DNA of 64,000 nt from Acidobacteriota bacterium (GTDB lineage: Bacteria; Acidobacteriota; Vicinamibacteria; Vicinamibacterales; SCN-69-37), in assembly GCA_020853395.1 (NCBI GenBank), contig JADYYY010000016.1, positions 1-64,000 of the forward strand. The letters run 5' to 3'. Under the pieces are notes generated by a model. It was not told the DNA's origin and did not search any database. It saw nothing but the letters and a program-made list of their open reading frames with translations. Each line of letters begins with the position of its first letter. Position 1 is the first letter of the stretch. Shown one piece after another: positions 4,206-63,053 of the stretch. Both the position numbers and the translations under genes were made by a program.

Positions 4206-5369
4206 CTACTCGTAGAGCAGGAACCGTTGCCGCACGGCGAGGAACGGCTCGACTGCTGCGGCCCAGCCCGCGGCGATGTCCTGCGGCCGCTCGCCGCGCG
4301 CCATCGCGTCGCGCAAGCCCGACGAACCGTACAGGATGTCGATCGGCATCTTCGTGTGCTCGTACTCGTACGGCGGGTCGCGCCACGCGAAGCGGTCGGG
4401 CGCCGCGCGGCGGAACGCGTCGACGAGCGCCACGCCCGTTGCGACGGCGCGGAACGCGCCGCGGTCGAGCACGTGCACCTGGCACCCGCCGCAGGCCGTC
4501 TGCGCGTGTTTCTGGAACGTCGGTTCGAACATCACCGGGCGGAACCGCACGCCGGGCAGGCCGAGCGCATTGAGCGCAGCCGAAAACGGCTCCGGATCCA
4601 CCCACGGGGCGCCGACGAGCTCGAACGGCCGCGTCGTGCCTCGCCCCTCGGACACGTTCGTCCCTTCGAACAGCACCGTCCCGGGATACACGATGGCGCC
4701 CTCGAGCGTCGGCAGGTTGGGCGACGGCAGAATCCACGACAGCCCGGTGGCGTCGAAGTACTGGTCGCGCCGCCAGCCGCGCATCGCCACGACCTCGAGC
4801 TTCGCGCCGATGCCGAAGTGCTCGTTGAACAGCCGCGCCAGCTCGCCGATCGTCATGCCGTGTCGCATCGGGATCGGGTACTCGCCCACGAACGACTCGA
4901 AGCCGTGATGGAGCATCGGCCCTTCGACCGCCACGCCGCCGATCGGGTTCGGGCGATCGCACACCACGATCGGGAGGCCCTCCCGCGCCGCGGCGACGAG
5001 GCAGTGCGCCATCGTGTAGACGTACGTGTAGATCCGCGTGCCCACGTCCTGCAGCTCGACGACGAGCGCGTCGAGGCCGCGGAGCATGTCCCGCGTCGGC
5101 TCGCGCGTTTCACTGTAGAGCGAGTAGATCGGGACGCGCCGGCGCACATCCTGCGCGTGCGGCGACTCGATCATGTTGTCCTGGACGTCGGATCGAAACC
5201 CATGCTGCGGACCGAAGATCGCCCCGACGCGCACGCCGGCGTCTTCGGCGCGATCGATCGCGTGCGCGAGGTTCGCCGAGACCGACGCCGGGTTGCACAC
5301 CAGGCCCACGGTCCGGCCTTTGAGAAGCTGCTGCTGGAAGAGCACGTCGGACCCGAGCGTCACGGACAT
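4206..5369 (-). CDS. NamZ-like exo-beta-N-acetylmuramidase (DUF1343 family)
   Basis: Likely removes N-acetylmuramic acid from peptidoglycan fragments, the activity known for NamZ in this family. The 387-residue protein matches DUF1343 across its length: LKGRTVGLVCNPASV near the start, FGPQHGFRSDVQDNM, LVVELQDVGTRIYTYVYTM, VCDRPNPIGG, LPSPNLPTLEGAIVYPGT and GRGTTRPFELVGAPW. No signal peptide is evident with the ATG chosen here at 5369. Upstream of that ATG the frame stays open only because repetitive DNA begins 16 bases away, so a longer start is unlikely. No good ribosome-binding site is seen. Confidence 0.88.
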   Translation of the reverse strand: MSVTLGSDVLFQQQLLKGRTVGLVCNPASVSANLAHAIDRAEDAGVRVGAIFGPQHGFRSDVQDNMIESPHAQDVRRRVPIYSLYSETREPTRDMLRGLDALVVELQDVGTRIYTYVYTMAHCLVAAAREGLPIVVCDRPNPIGGVAVEGPMLHHGFESFVGEYPIPMRHGMTIGELARLFNEHFGIGAKLEVVAMRGWRRDQYFDATGLSWILPSPNLPTLEGAIVYPGTVLFEGTNVSEGRGTTRPFELVGAPWVDPEPFSAALNALGLPGVRFRPVMFEPTFQKHAQTACGGCQVHVLDRGAFRAVATGVALVDAFRRAAPDRFAWRDPPYEYEHTKMPIDILYGSSGLRDAMARGERPQDIAAGWAAAVEPFLAVRQRFLLYE

Positions 5370-5384
5370 GGAGGAGATGATAGA

Positions 5385-5959
5385 ACGACGGGTACGACGG
5401 GTACGACTGGTACGACGGGTACGACGGGCGAGAGGAACGAACTGACGTGGGCCAGCTTCTTCGGGTACGACGGGTGCGATTGGTACGACGGGGCACTGAC
5501 GCTGGCCAACCTTTTTCGGGTACGCCAGGTGCGACTGGTGCGACGGGTACGACGGGCGAGAGGAACGAACTGACGTGGGCCAGCTTCTTCGGGTACGACG
5601 GGTACGACGGGTACGACGGGTACGACAGGCGACTGGAACGCACTGACGCTGGCCAACCTTTTTCGGGTACGACAGGTGCGACTGGTGCGACGGGTACGAC
5701 GGGCGAGTGGAACGCACTGACGTGGGTCAGCTTCTTCGGGTACGACGGGTACGACTGATACGGCGGGTACGACAGGCGACTGGAACGCACTGACGCTGGC
5801 CAACCTTCTTCGGGTACGACGGGTGCGACTGGTACGACGGGTACGACTGGTACGACGGGTACGACAGGCGAGAGGAACGCACTGACGCTGGCCAACTTTC
5901 TTCGGATACGACGGGTACGACCGGCACGATGGGTACGCCGAGGACAACCGGTACGACGA
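5385..5959 (+). repeat. composite repeat array A (GGTACGAC nonamers plus ~50-base spacer blocks)
   Basis: Runs of a 9-base unit close to GGGTACGAC, with T/C and A/T variants, alternate with a conserved block of about 50 bases. The block contains GGAACG(A/C)ACTGACG and ends CTTCTTCGGG or CTTTTTCGGG. At least five blocks occur. The array begins 16 bases before the namZ start codon. It lacks stop codons in most frames, which creates long false ORFs. No RBS, codon structure or known domain supports coding. Confidence 0.85.
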
Positions 5960-6925
5960 GACCCGGCTCCTGTTCGTCAACGGCGTGTTGACTCGCACGC
6001 GAGCGCGACGGTTGTTGGGGCCACAACGCCCTCGCTGGTCGTTGTGCGCCTGCCAATCCTCGCGCCGGATTCCGGGCGTTTTCGGAGCGCCGCCGGCGAG
6101 ACCGCGCGCGGGTGGTGGTCGCGACTTCCGATCCTCCAGCGCCGCATCACCGTGCCGGTGACGGTGCACCCATTTGGCGACCGTCCGGACACTGATGGCC
6201 ATCCTGCGTGAGCTGGACGGCGGCAACGGTGTCCGCGTGCTGCTCCAGCCGCAGCACTTCGGGAAAGGTGCGGCTTGCTCCGCTCGGGACTGACTCCAGC
6301 CCTACTTCCTCACGCGGGCACCAGCGGCTGTCGCATCCTCGCGGTCGTCTTCGCACTACAGCGGAATCTCATTCGGGAGTCCCTCCAGAAACAGTGGCTT
6401 GGTGTGGTAACCGCTGTTGTTTCCAGAGATTTCCCGAATGAACAACCTGCGTAGCATTCACAGTTCGGGCGAGACGTCTACTTTCGGTGTAGTCATGGCG
6501 CCGGAGCTCGAGCAGTTGGTGGTCTCGGCAACCGACTCTTCGTTCGGGTGCTCGTCCCGAACGTCTCGTCGGAGACTCCACGTTCGCGTTGTCGATCAGC
6601 TCGCGGCCGCAGGATGACGCGCAGCGTCTGGGCCCATCCAGGCATCGAGCGCGTCTTCCACAGACTCCTCGGGGTCGTCGACGACGACGATCGTGCGGAG
6701 GTCGCGGTGCGGCTCCAAGCGATCCAAGCTGCGGACGACGCGCATCAGCGGGCGGCTGTCGCCTTCGATGGCGAGGCGCTCACGTGTGAGTCGTCAACGA
6801 CGTTGAGCCTGCGAACTGGCCAGCAGCGGCAAGCGCGTCGCGCATGAACCACCGATCGCACTCGCCACGCGCCGTCATCGCTGGCAGGACGACGGCCCCG
6901 GCCAGCCAACCGTCACCGCCGTATG
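5960..6925. other. decayed DNA between the two inverted repeat arrays
   Basis: About 1 kb without an intact gene, enclosed by repeat arrays A and B. The only recognisable piece is an IS481-type transposase N-terminus at 6104-6226. On the minus strand around 6610-6780 there is a protein-like open stretch (including IVVVDDPEESVEDALDAW) of no family I recognise; it has no clear start or RBS. Confidence 0.5.
6104..6226 (-). pseudogene. IS481-type transposase remnant (helix-turn-helix only)
   Basis: The frame reads MAISVRTVAKWVHRHRHG then LEDRKSRPPP. This matches the N-terminal helix-turn-helix and following linker of IS481-family transposases (VSxRTVxKWxxRY...GLxDRSSRP). The DDE catalytic domain is absent and the frame runs on into repeat array A. 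Confidence 0.5.
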
Positions 6926-7353
6926 AATCGTACCCGTCGTCCCCGAAAAAGGGTTAGCGCGCGTCAGTTCGTTCCTCTCGCCCGTCGTACCCGTCGCACC
7001 CGTCGTACCTGTCGCACCCGAAAAGGTGACGAGCGTCAGTGCGTTCCTGTCGCTTGTCGTACCCGTCGTACCGGTCGTACCTGTCGCACCCGTCGTACCG
7101 GTTGTACCTGTCGCACCCGAAAAGGTGACGTGCGTCAGCGCGTTCCTGTCGCCCGTCGTACCCGTCGCACCGGTCGTACCTGTCGCACCCGAAAAGGTGA
7201 CCCGCGTCAGTGCGTTCCAGTCGCCTGTCGTACCCGTCGTACCTGTCGTACCTGTCGCACCCGAAAAGGTGACGTGCGTCAGTTCGTTCCTGTCGCCCGT
7301 CGTACCCGTCGCACCCGTCGCACCCGTCGTACCTGTCGCACCCGTCGTACCCG
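6926..7353 (-). repeat. composite repeat array B, inverted relative to array A
   Basis: Same repeat family as 5385-5959 but on the opposite strand: GTCGTACCC/GTCGCACCT nonamers separated by blocks containing CGTCAGTTCGTTCC and CCCGAAAAGGTGAC. At least five blocks are present. The array ends 4 bases from the stop codon of the phospholipase D gene. Sequence between nonamer runs differs slightly from array A (CACC-TTTTCGGG instead of CAGC-TTCTTCGGG), so this is not a recent inverted copy. Confidence 0.85.
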
Positions 7354-7357
7354 TGCC

Positions 7358-8794
7358 CTATCGCTGCCGCCAGACCGTCCAGGCCTCGACGAGCAGTGCG
7401 ACGCCGAACCAGGTCGCGACCGCGGCCAGCGGCCACGCGAGCAGCCAGGGCACGAAGAAGACGACGACCGCCAGGGCGACGAGCAGGAGGCCGAGCCAGA
7501 CGACCGGCTGGACCTCGAAGTCCTCGAGCCGGCGGCTGCCCGTGAGCGCGGCGCCGAACGTGCGGCCGACGCCGGCGACCGTCCGCATGACCCGCCGCGA
7601 CGGCTTGTAGCCCGTCCCGGCGCGGACGCCCGGCAGCCGGCGGGGGCGCGGCGCCGCCGGGCGCGGGCTGCCGAGCACGATCTCCGTCGACCGCGCGAGA
7701 TCGTCCTCGAACTGCGCGGCGAGCGTCGACGCGACCCCCTCGTGCTCGATCGCGACGTCCATTTCCCAGTTGCCGATCCAGCTCGTGATGTTGAGGTTGG
7801 TCGATCCGATCCGCGCCCATCGCTGGTCGGCGATGGCCGTCTTGGCGTGGATCATGGTGCCGTTCCACTCGAAGATGCGGACGCCGGCCTCGAGCAGCGG
7901 CCGGTAGAGCGACCGTGACAACGGCACGACCCACCCGACGTCGCTGTTGCGCGGCAGCAGCAGCCGCACGTCCACGCCGTCGCGCGCCGCGCGCTTCAGT
8001 CCCTCGAGATACGGGCCCGGCCCGACGAAATACGCGTCGGTGATCCAGAGCGACTGGCGCGCGAGCGCCGCGACGAGCAGATCCAGCCGGAAGAGGTTGG
8101 CGGTGAACGGCTCGGTGGGAATCAGCCGCAAGCTGACGTCGCCGGCCGGCGGCACGAACGTCGGCAACGGGACCTCCGACGGCGTGCCGCCCACCAGCCG
8201 CCAACTGTCGGCGAACGCCGCCTCCGCGTGCGTGACCGCCGGCCCCGTGATCGCCAGCCCGGTGTCGCGCCAGGGCGCGAGCCCCTTCTCCGGGATCCCG
8301 AGCCAGAGCTGGCCGATGCACAGCCCGGAGACGAACGCGATCTCTCCATCCACCGTGAGCAGCTTGCGGTGATTGCGCCGCAGCCAGCCGAGCGCGCTCG
8401 ACAGGGCGGGCGGATTGAACGCCCTCACTTCGCCGCCAGCGGCGACGAGCGGAGAGAAGAGCCCGCGCAAGGGCCCGAGACCACACCCGAACCAGTCGTA
8501 GATCACGCGCACCGCGATGCCCTCGCGCGCCTTGGCGGCGAGCGCCTCGACGAACCGCCGGCCGACGGCATCGCGGTGGACGATGTACATCTCGACGTGG
8601 ATCGATCGGCGTGCCCGCTCGATCGCGCGCTCCCACGCCGGGTAGTTCTCGGTCGCGTCGCGCAGCACGTCGACGTGGTTGCCGGTGATGAGCGGCGCGC
8701 CCGCGGCACGGCTGAACGCCTGATCGGCGAGCGTACGCAGCGTCTCGAGATCCCGCGGCGCCGGTCCGGGACGCACGGCCGTTCTGGTCGGCAT
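7358..8794 (-). CDS. phospholipase D-family cardiolipin synthase-like protein
   Basis: Transfers or hydrolyses phosphatidyl groups at the membrane, probably making cardiolipin. The 478-residue protein has both HKD motifs: H142-x-K144-x4-D149 (NHRKLLTVDG) and H316-x-K318-x4-D323 (MIHAKTAIADQ), each followed by the usual Gly-Ser/Gly region. Unlike classical Cls the hydrophobic segments are at the C-terminus (about 425-470) rather than the N-terminus, so the topology is odd. ATG at 8794; the frame stays open upstream over DNA of the divergent gene. Repeat array B abuts its 3' end. Confidence 0.87.
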   Translation of the reverse strand: MPTRTAVRPGPAPRDLETLRTLADQAFSRAAGAPLITGNHVDVLRDATENYPAWERAIERARRSIHVEMYIVHRDAVGRRFVEALAAKAREGIAVRVIYDWFGCGLGPLRGLFSPLVAAGGEVRAFNPPALSSALGWLRRNHRKLLTVDGEIAFVSGLCIGQLWLGIPEKGLAPWRDTGLAITGPAVTHAEAAFADSWRLVGGTPSEVPLPTFVPPAGDVSLRLIPTEPFTANLFRLDLLVAALARQSLWITDAYFVGPGPYLEGLKRAARDGVDVRLLLPRNSDVGWVVPLSRSLYRPLLEAGVRIFEWNGTMIHAKTAIADQRWARIGSTNLNITSWIGNWEMDVAIEHEGVASTLAAQFEDDLARSTEIVLGSPRPAAPRPRRLPGVRAGTGYKPSRRVMRTVAGVGRTFGAALTGSRRLEDFEVQPVVWLGLLLVALAVVVFFVPWLLAWPLAAVATWFGVALLVEAWTVWRQR

Positions 8795-48790: not shown

Positions 48791-48861
48791 CGCCCGACCT
48801 TTCGCTAGGCCGGACTCTAAACCGAAACGCTACTCAGATCGGGGGAGACGTCAATGGTGCC

Positions 48862-51800
48862 GCTTCAATGAGGCCGCGGTTCATCAACCGCGGAAAGGAA
48901 CGGTCCTTCCGGCTCAAGATCCGGCACCAGTGGCTTCAATGAGGCCGCGGTTCATCAACCGCGGAAAGCACCTCCCGCCCCTCACGCGCCGCCAATGTGC
49001 CGGCGCTTCAATGAGGCCGCGGTTCATCAACCGCGGAAAGGCGACGGACGGCACGGCGCTCCTCGCCGATCTCGAGCTTCAATGAGGCCGCGGTTCATCG
49101 ACCGCGGAAAGCTTCGCCGACTGGTACGAGGCCCAGCACACGACCCAGCTTCAATGAGGCCGCGGTTCATCAACCGCGGAAAGCCGGTGGAGCCGCCCGA
49201 GAGCGTCGCGCCGATCTTGCTTCAATGAGGCCGCGGTTCATCAACCGCGGAAAGCGACCTGCCCGTGCCCCAAGTCCACGCGGGGCCACTTGCTTCAATG
49301 AGGCCGCGGTTCATCAACCGCGGAAAGGGCTTTCGACGGAAACAGATCCTCGATCAGGCACCCGCTTCAATGAGGCCGCGGTTCATCAACCGCGGAAAGG
49401 CGGCGGCACGACGGCGAAAGAGATCAGCCAGTTCGCTTCAATGAGGCCGCGGTTCATCAACCGCGGAAAGGTCCGATCTCCACGGAAGATCACCAGCACA
49501 CTCGGGCTTCAATGAGGCCGCGGTTCATCAACCGCGGAAAGGTCGCCCGAAACTGTCGCACGTGACCCACGATCTTGCTTCAATGAGGCCGCGGTTCATC
49601 AACCGCGGAAAGGAACGTCTCGGTGACCCAGGTCTGCGCGTTGCCGTAGCTTCAATGAGGCCGCGGTTCATCAACCGCGGAAAGGAGGCGTTCGCGTTTC
49701 TGCGGCCGGCGCTGCCGGAGCTTCAATGAGGCCGCGGTTCATCAACCGCGGAAAGTCGACGTTCCATCAGTAGCGCATACGCCGCCCGATTGCTTCAATG
49801 AGGCCGCGGTTCATCAACCGCAGAAAGAGCGTCGCCGTCACCTCCGGTGATCCACCCCTGCTAGCTTCAATGAGGCCGCGGTTCATCAACCGCGGAAAGA
49901 CGCGGGCCACAATCAGCGCCGCGTTCCACCGATCGCGCTTCAATGAGGCCGCGGTTCATCAACCGCGGAAAGTCGAGGTGGGCCCAATTCCCACGGACCG
50001 CGTGCCAGCTTCAATGAGGCCGCGGTTCATCAACCGCGGAAAGCTGATCGGCGGATGGGAGGACGACTGGATTGCCCGGCTTCAATGAGGCCGCGGTTCA
50101 TCAACCGCGGAAAGCCATGACGATGCTGCGCCTGGCGCCTGATGCCTCGCTAGCTTCAATGAGGCCGCGGTTCATCAACCGCGGAAAGGTCGTGCGCCTT
50201 GCCCGGGAACGCGATGCCGTCCCCTTCGCTTCAATGAGGCCGCGGTTCATCAACCGCGGAAAGGCGGATCTCTGCCGGCTGCTCGGCTACCGGACGTACT
50301 CGCTTCAATGAGGCCGCGGTTCATCAACCGCGGAAAGGCGGCGGGCGCGATCGTCCCCTGGGATGCCGACGCGCAGCTTCAATGAGGCCGCGGTGCATCA
50401 ACCGCGGAAAGCCCACCGCAGCGCCGGTGCCCATCAGATAGCTGGCGCTTCAATGAGGCCGCGGTTCATCAACCGCGGAAAGATCGGGCGGCGCTACGAC
50501 CTGCTCGGCGAAGTGCTGCTTCAATGAGGCCGCGGTTCATCAACCGCGGAAAGCGTGCGATGGGTCCGGTACCAGTCGGCGAACGTGGCGCTTCAATGAG
50601 GCCGCGGTTCATCAACCGCGGAAAGGATCTCGTCAATGGTCGCGTCCGTCCCCGTGCGCGCGCTTCAATGAGGCCGCGGTTCATCAACCGCGGAAAGCGG
50701 TCTGGGTGATGATCTTTTCGCCGTCCGCGTCCGGCTTCAATGAGGCCGCGGTTCATCAACCGCGGAAAGCAGTCCTGGATCGTCACGAGCCCGGCATCGT
50801 CCGCGTCGGGCTTCAATGAGGCCGCGGTTCATCAACCGCGGAAAGGGATGCGGGCTTTACCATCGATGTCCCGGAGATTGCGGCGCTTCAATGAGGCCGC
50901 GGTTCATCAACCGCGGAAAGAGGGTCTTGTAGCTCTCGGCCAGTTGCTCTTCGTGGCTTCAATGAGGCCGCGGTTCATCAACCGCGGAAAGGGCGCAGGG
51001 AGGATTGTGCGATGGGGTATCTCGACGCTTCAATGAGGCCGCGGGTCATCAACCGCGGAAAGCCGGGGTCTCGCCGAGCGCAAGGTGCTGTCGTGCCGCT
51101 TCAATGAGGCCGCGGTTCATCAACCGCGGAAAGACGTCAATAGCTGGAGCGACTACCTGCGTCTCAGCTCGAGCTTCAATGAGGCCGCGGTTCATCAACC
51201 GCGGAAAGAATCGCCACATAACCCCCGGAAGTCGACCGCATCGACGCTTCAATGAGGCCGCGGTTCATCAACCGCGGAAAGTTGGCCGCACTGATCCACC
51301 GCTAACTCCCGCGCGGTAGTCGGGCTTCAATGAGGCCGCGGTTCATCAACCGCGGAAAGGCGATCGACGCCGTGCGATCGCGGCAGGGCGCCGTGCTTCA
51401 ATGAGGCCGCGGTTCATCAACCGCGGAAAGTACACGCACGGCCGGCCGGCCTTGTCCTGTCCCATGCTTCAATGAGGCCGCGGTTCATCAACCGCGGAAA
51501 GCCCACGCCGGTCCTCGCCGCAGCGAAAGGAAAGTGTTGCTTCAATGAGGCCGCGGTTCATCAACCGCGGAAAGTGACGCACAACTATTGATCAGAAGCT
51601 CGAGGGGGTGCTTCAATGAGGCCGCGGTTCATCAACCGCGGAAAGGACACGCAACTCCTTTCCCTACAATCACTTACCGTTGGCTTCAATGAGGCCGCGG
51701 TTCATCAACCGCGGAAAGCCCCCACCTCCGAACCTCGTCTATCGCGTTCTGCGTGAAGCTTCAATGAGGCCGCGGTTCATCAACCGCGGAAAGCGCTCAT

Positions 51801-52443
51801 CGTGGCCGGGTTGAAATCGGCGCGCGCTTGGCTTCAATGAGGCCGCGGTTCATCAACCGCGGAAAGCAGCGCGCGGGCGGCGCGTCGCGGGCGGGCGATG
51901 TGCTTCAATGAGGCCGCGGTTCATCAACCGCGGAAAGAGATACCACGTGTGACCGTCGTCGGTGCTCGCCAAGCTTCAATGAGGCCGCGGTTCATCAACC
52001 GCGGAAAGCCGACGATCCGATCCCCCGGCGCTCCTCGCCGTAGTGCTTCAATGAGGCCGCGGTTCATCAACCGCGGAAAGACGAAGGCGTTCAGCGGCCA
52101 GTCGCCGCGCAGCGAGCTTCAATGAGGCCGCGGTTCATCAACCGCGGAAAGGCGTCGAACGCCGACTGGCTGTCGAGGGCGTCCTCGCTTCAATGAGGCC
52201 GCGGTTCATCAACCGCGGAAAGCTCTTGGGGAAACTCGCCCCGCACCTTCGCGATGTAAATCGCTTCAATGAGGCCGCGGTTCATCAACCGCGGAAAGCG
52301 TGCCACGTGTCGAGATAGCCGCCGTCCTGCACGGCTTCAATGAGGCCGCGGTTCATCAACCGCGGAAAGTCGGCACCAACTACGGACTCGTCTACGACAG
52401 CACCAACGCTTCAATGAGGCCGCGGTTCATCAACCGCGGAAAG
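48862..52443 (-). CRISPR. type I-G CRISPR array, 50 repeats and 49 spacers
   Basis: Fifty 36-base repeats with spacers of 35-42 bases. On the plus strand each repeat starts GCTTCAATGAGG and ends CGCGGAAAG, with a perfect 8-base stem CCGCGGTT/AACCGCGG and a CATC loop. On the minus strand the repeat ends ATTGAAGC, like the common 3' ATTGAAAC handle, so minus-strand transcription is favoured. Single-base variant repeats start at 49076, 49792, 50376 and 51027; none were seen from 51098 to the right end, fitting a leader on the right. I saw no repeated spacers. Confidence 0.98.
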
Positions 52444-62960: not shown

Positions 62961-63053
62961 GAAGGGCAAAGGGCAAAGGGCAGAGGGCAGAGGGCAAAGG
63001 TAAAGGGGAAAAGAGGGACGAAGGGAAAAGGGGAAAGGGAAGACCGAAATGCG
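62961..63053 (+). repeat. purine-rich heptamer repeat with G-quadruplex potential
   Basis: GGGC(A/A-G/A)A heptamers repeat so that GGG runs begin at 62964, 62971, 62978, 62985 and 62992, exactly seven bases apart, then continue as looser GGGG/AAA runs to about 63053. Four GGG tracts with 4-base loops meet the G-quadruplex rule. It separates the DUF5916 gene from ctaA by 166 bases. Similar heptamer repeats are known from cyanobacteria. Confidence 0.8.

Follow-up and report, generated by a model that had tools for sequence, protein, structure and literature searches.

Inverted tandem-repeat arrays between two genes of an Acidobacteriota bacterium: a probable mobile element copy of a family associated with IVP (S23p) genes

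In the window (the whole stretch of 64,000 nucleotides that was analysed), two inverted arrays of short repeats lie between the gene of NamZ and that of a PLD-domain protein. We take these arrays, with a probability of roughly 0.7, to be the arms of a mobile element copy inserted between the two genes, a copy that lacks the IVP gene of its family and is either non-autonomous or degenerate. Sequence comparison showed that the arrays belong to a family with inward-facing arms, and that sister copies have empty counterparts in relatives. It also showed that IVP (S23p, PF05635) genes are associated with such arms, that the repeat word of the arms is specific to the IVP and co-occurs with it, and that an insertion in a 23S rRNA gene has the same design. 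By analogy with REPIN-RAYT, we propose an IVP-linked element system.

The array element in the window

The left arm (5385..5958, + strand) consists of 9-bp GGTRCGACN units with interposed blocks containing GGAACG..ACTGACG. The right arm (6925..7353, - strand) has the same make-up, read from the other strand. Both arrays of alternating 9-base units and conserved blocks are thus present as an earlier note on this DNA had described them. The block consensus of the two arms is GGCGA(C/G)(A/T)GGAACG..ACTGACG, and the composite period is 73-74 bp in the left array and 72 bp in the right. As the note had also stated, the arrays are opposite in direction and stand close to gene ends. The left arm lies ~16 bp from the start codon of the gene for the exo-beta-N-acetylmuramidase NamZ (4206..5369, - strand), and the right arm lies 4 bp from the stop codon of the gene for the PLD-domain protein (7358..8794, - strand), both being flanking host genes. 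The view that each array had expanded separately survived in part. When the two arms were compared, stretches of 64-89 bp were found to be 80-91% complementary, and the blocks are homologous, set apart mainly by small indels and substitutions; hence separate expansion can have followed only after a common origin.

The middle (5959..6924) is unique, decayed DNA that has no relation to the middles of sister copies, and an S23p/IVP (PF05635) gene is absent from it. It contains a helix-turn-helix remnant (6106..6210, - strand; HTH_28/HTH_29, E 7e-5, below the curated cut-off) which, by eye, resembles the N-terminus of an IS481-type transposase. The element as a whole is bounded by the inverted repeats and is intergenic, not placed in a 23S rRNA gene. 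A structured RNA region had been suggested for this locus, and any transcript would indeed form a very long hairpin, but no Rfam family matched at 5300-7450. A collagen-like coding repeat was considered and rejected: the right array stays in frame (G-T-T/G-A-T codons), but the left array, with its period of 73-74 bp, shifts frame at every block. For the copy in the window, none of the relatives G010, G011 and G013 offered an exact empty site; there the PLD and NamZ genes are 5-9 kb apart, and therefore gene loss too has shaped the window locus.

Elsewhere in the window, a palindromic unit of 36 bp, GCTTCAATGAGGCCGCGGTTCATCAACCGCGGAAAG, recurs ~46 times at positions 48861-52222, its copies being separated by ~35-bp spacers, an arrangement that looks like that of a CRISPR array.

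The repeat family and its association with IVP genes

The genome to which the window belongs (G000, 4.28 Mb) was searched for the repeat. Runs of three adjacent units, with no more than 2 mismatches, gave 83 forward and 81 reverse matches, compared with 0/0 for the reversed-pattern control. The block pattern gave 72 matches beside these 164 triple-unit matches, again with a control near zero. Arrays were located at at least 20 loci, a lower bound as are all copy numbers taken from pattern searches, and about 10 of these loci are pairs; every pair is inward-facing. A chance local expansion, which the earlier note had allowed for if only this locus carried the repeat, was not borne out, the loci being at least 20 and the control 0/0.

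The middles of the sister copies range from tens of bp up to 2.4 kb, and no homology was detected among the element middles of G000 at either the DNA or the protein level. One copy (C7:256381-257369; L011/L215), with the same arms as the window family, holds an intact IVP/S23 gene at C7:256805-257074. In another (L012:8660-9385), an intact gene for a GNAT acetyltransferase, possibly cargo, lies between GGTACGAC arms. Some sister copies hold insertion-sequence remnants, such as an IS110-like fragment in L254 (identified by eye). A second element family is also present: a single arm of the heptamer AAGGGCA (window 62962..63039, + strand) starts ~11 bp after a stop codon, and the same heptamer flanks an IVP gene 28 kb downstream (G000:C16:90768-91028, L209).

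PF05635 was found in 62 of the 119 Acidobacteriota genomes sampled. IVP loci with long enough flanks (n=53) were then scored for arms, the threshold being at least four 10-mers common in inverted orientation to the 500-bp flanks. Inverted arms were observed at 41/53 IVP loci, against 0/53 in the reversed-not-complemented control and 3/30 at NamZ/PLD loci; the remaining 12/53 IVP loci had no detectable arms. RAYT loci, a known positive, scored 15/19 in the same test. The best repeat period of the arms was 7 in 28 loci, 8 in 11 and 9 in 2, the GGTACGAC family being among the 9-bp cases.

When repeat words were compared with the proteins, each of the six IVP pairs of at least 80% identity had a word in common, and words were mostly unrelated below ~60% (Mantel p=0.0005), the pairs being not fully independent, as some may be orthologous insertions. 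At one junction with near-identical flanks within a single genus, the genome G123 holds a different IVP (56%) and different arms from those of G103 and G093; hence arms and IVP have been exchanged together. The word of the IVP locus in G010 and G013 gave 50 and 49 matches in those genomes and none in five congeners. Where two copies of this word stand close together on opposite strands, they face inward in 25 of 25 cases, and most such pairs are 60-160 bp apart, with no room for an IVP gene. Similarly, the word of the IVP in G073 has 18 copies in G073 and 0 in six other genomes of its family. As with RAYT and REPINs, such co-occurrence of a word with its cognate IVP is typical of an element that codes for a protein and is accompanied by non-autonomous derivatives.

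The association extends beyond the phylum. When plasmids were searched by tblastn, IVPs were obtained in cyanobacteria and other groups. Inverted arrays, mostly of heptamers, were present at 12 of the 14 plasmid IVP loci fetched, which are mostly cyanobacterial; one of the 12 (L275) is weak. According to the annotation, one of these plasmid genes lies between two ribonucleotide reductase genes, two lie between cas6 and cas4, and one between cas10 and cmr3. One of the 12, in Azospirillum, is situated inside a 23S rRNA gene (LSU_rRNA_bacteria, 2520 bits), and its arms contain GACGGATGACAGA. Therefore, the classical 23S intervening sequences (IVS) and the elements located between genes have a common protein and arm design. 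The G000 IVP is weakly related in sequence (E 5e-4) to XCC0516 of Xanthomonas campestris, an S23p protein of solved structure (2GSC).

Could the IVP be a passenger? It would be one among several if the family were an ordinary MITE-like one, with arms that serve as terminal repeats for a transposase (cut-and-paste or HUH) whose gene lies elsewhere. The arms do behave as inverted termini, one copy carries the GNAT gene and others insertion-sequence remnants. Moreover, the second genus examined (G002) has shorter versions of the GGTACGAC element at many sites and copies without a cognate IVP: it has two IVPs, neither of them with the GGTACGAC word despite the many GGTACGAC elements. However, the IVP is found between arms across phyla, and the words are specific to the IVP lineage. 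The arms are tandem arrays whose words differ wholly between lineages, G000 has no RAYT, and target-site duplications were not seen. On balance, we regard a MITE-like family as unlikely.

Insertion sites and placement beside genes

Orthologous junctions were compared between G000 and its relatives. The gap from the stop codon of AspRS to the start of the ROK kinase measures 0 to ~40 bp in eight relatives; in G000 an array element of ~530 bp stands between the TGA and the ATG. Likewise, the convergent MTHFR/SDR gap is ~10-40 bp in G002 and G003, and holds an element of ~1 kb in G000. As these gaps are tiny in relatives and are occupied by 0.5-1 kb elements in G000, the elements are insertions. 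In the latter case (L009:2400-2550), the MTHFR frame continues into the arm of the element, and its repeat-encoded tail reads ..LSLVGTADTTGPKVRQVQGTN*. Two genes with a gap of only a few bp in G003 are separated in G002 by the L148 element. The L145 element of G002 lies between divergent gene starts, for which the spacing in G000 and G001 is ~80-100 bp. Orthologous empty sites are thus on hand for the sister copies L014 and L009 of G000 and L148 of G002, and the G002 copies of the GGTACGAC repeat are, to judge from sequence, independent insertions. A non-autonomous element, one of the possibilities raised earlier for the window, accords well with a multicopy family whose arms always face inward, whose sister copies have empty sites and which has an IVP-coding member in G000. 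No consistent target-site duplication was found when the flanks were inspected by eye. At the AspRS-ROK junction of G002 (L179; G002:C11:43750-43960), ~200 bp of unrelated sequence was observed; G002 and G000 have different insertions there.

Arm ends that face the 3' end of a gene stand very close to it. In G002, 25/25 start 3-11 bp past the stop codon, and in G000 11/14 are within 1-7 bp of it. At IVP loci across Acidobacteriota, the distances between element and gene are mostly close to zero, and the tails of some upstream genes are repeat-encoded. To judge from the empty sites, a part of the target gaps, at the least, was already tiny before insertion; this gene-hugging may therefore reflect a choice of target, the survival of those insertions that do no harm, or a combination of the two.

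The same placement would suit arrays with a function at 3' ends, as terminator or mRNA-stabilising modules that evolve in place by slippage and are not mobile. The 25/25 G002 arrays with a gene reading in fit such modules, as do the many G002 blocks in which a strong hairpin is combined with T runs, and in L030 a hairpin occupies the position of the native terminator of G003. Against this, some copies separate divergently oriented genes (L145, L016) or stand before a start codon (the left arm in the window), relatives lack an element at the corresponding junctions, some elements bear genes, and one lies within a 23S rRNA gene. Terminator arrays evolving in place are largely refuted by the empty sites and the copies at divergent promoters, and we consider 3'-end modules in general to be very improbable. 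Comparison of L030 (G002) with L165 placed 9-bp units between the stop codon and the hairpin located at the G003 native terminator; hence, some hairpin blocks may be host terminators.

An invertible switch, in which recombination between the arms would flip the middle segment, is suggested by the inverted repeats around ~1 kb and had been named in the earlier note, but is scarcely credible, as there is no recombinase nearby, the middles are mostly non-coding and decayed and in sister copies go down to tens of bp, and all checked opposite-strand pairs are inward-facing with no sign of inversion.

Proposed system and comparison with known elements

In the IVP-linked system that we propose, the arms of the complete form enclose a single small gene, that of IVP/S23p (PF05635), and arms and IVP travel as a unit; in G000 this form is the copy at C7:256381-257369. 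Since they travel together, and each IVP lineage has its own word, the IVP pentamer likely recognises the arms, either as DNA or as the RNA or ssDNA hairpin that they form. The IVP would then spread its element and act in trans on copies that lack the gene, in the way that RAYT mobilises REPINs, and a host enzyme or some other one would carry out the strand chemistry; IVP has no known catalytic motif and may be a passenger. Transcribed arms would form a long stem open to cleavage by RNase III, also in mRNAs, and insertions between genes, in operons or in rRNA would thereby be tolerable.

Taken further, this suggests a class of bacterial mobile elements without a transposase. A four-helix-bundle IVP would recognise lineage-specific arms of heptamer-to-nonamer repeats and spread its own and gene-less elements beside stop and start codons, the 23S IVS being the members inserted in rRNA. 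We put this forward tentatively, at somewhat less than even odds. The weak points of the IVP-linked reading as a whole are that G002 is without a cognate IVP, that target-site duplications are lacking, and that the IVP-bearing copy of G000 is 1 of at least 20, a sister of which holds GNAT.

The origin and spread of the 23S IVS, and the meaning of heptamer arrays scattered in Xanthomonas and other bacteria, have been puzzles for decades, and the IVP-arm link suggests one element class behind both. It also offers a rule applicable to any genome, namely a cognate arm word together with an IVP. IVP elements would explain the small 'four helix bundle' genes that split operons (nrd, cas) in annotations. 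If elements are indeed moved by IVP with no nuclease or recombinase that can be recognised, this would be a new mode of DNA movement.

Among known systems, MITEs share inverted arms with the window element, for which no consistent target-site duplication was seen by eye. Foldback (FB) elements of Drosophila have long inverted arms of short tandem repeats and variable middle DNA. Their arm design is like that of the window element; being eukaryotic, they are not expected to be related in sequence or protein. REPIN/RAYT systems too have gene-less, inverted palindromic copies, and a word that occurs only alongside a cognate protein gene bearing the same repeats. Like a REPIN doublet, the window element is inverted, intergenic and present in many copies, but its arms are long tandem arrays and not REPs of 20-40 bp, and the protein of the family is IVP. 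REPs driven by RAYT were ruled out, as no match to the RAYT Y1 transposase (PF01797) was found in G000.

Comparable arrays are on record. Xanthomonas has GGGAATC heptamer arrays, with 70-75 convergent pairs per genome (about 70 in X. campestris, from which the 2GSC structure comes) and an unexplained cause (Rehm et al. 2015, PMC4692102), and Beggiatoaceae have TAACTGA repeats, intergenic and near ORF ends (PMC4679880). Both are, like the element studied here, intergenic arrays near ORF ends, for which no link to a mobile element or a protein has been reported. In the literature searched, from which subscription journals and preprints were outside the scope, no link between heptamer arrays and IVP was found. 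The remark in the earlier note that no repeat family of this form is known was therefore nearly right, the exceptions being the inverted heptamer pairs of Xanthomonas (PMC4692102) and the heptamers of the Coxiella 23S IVS (PMC4990558).

The 23S rRNA IVS of Leptospira and Coxiella differ from the window copy, which is intergenic, has no ORF, alternates its 9-bp unit with blocks and is one of the many copies of its family. Complete copies of the family, in contrast, are like these IVS in having the S23p/IVP protein and inverted repeats. In Coxiella the likeness goes further, as tandem GACAGAT heptamers stand before the S23p gene, and the IVS is excised by RNase III (PMC4990558).
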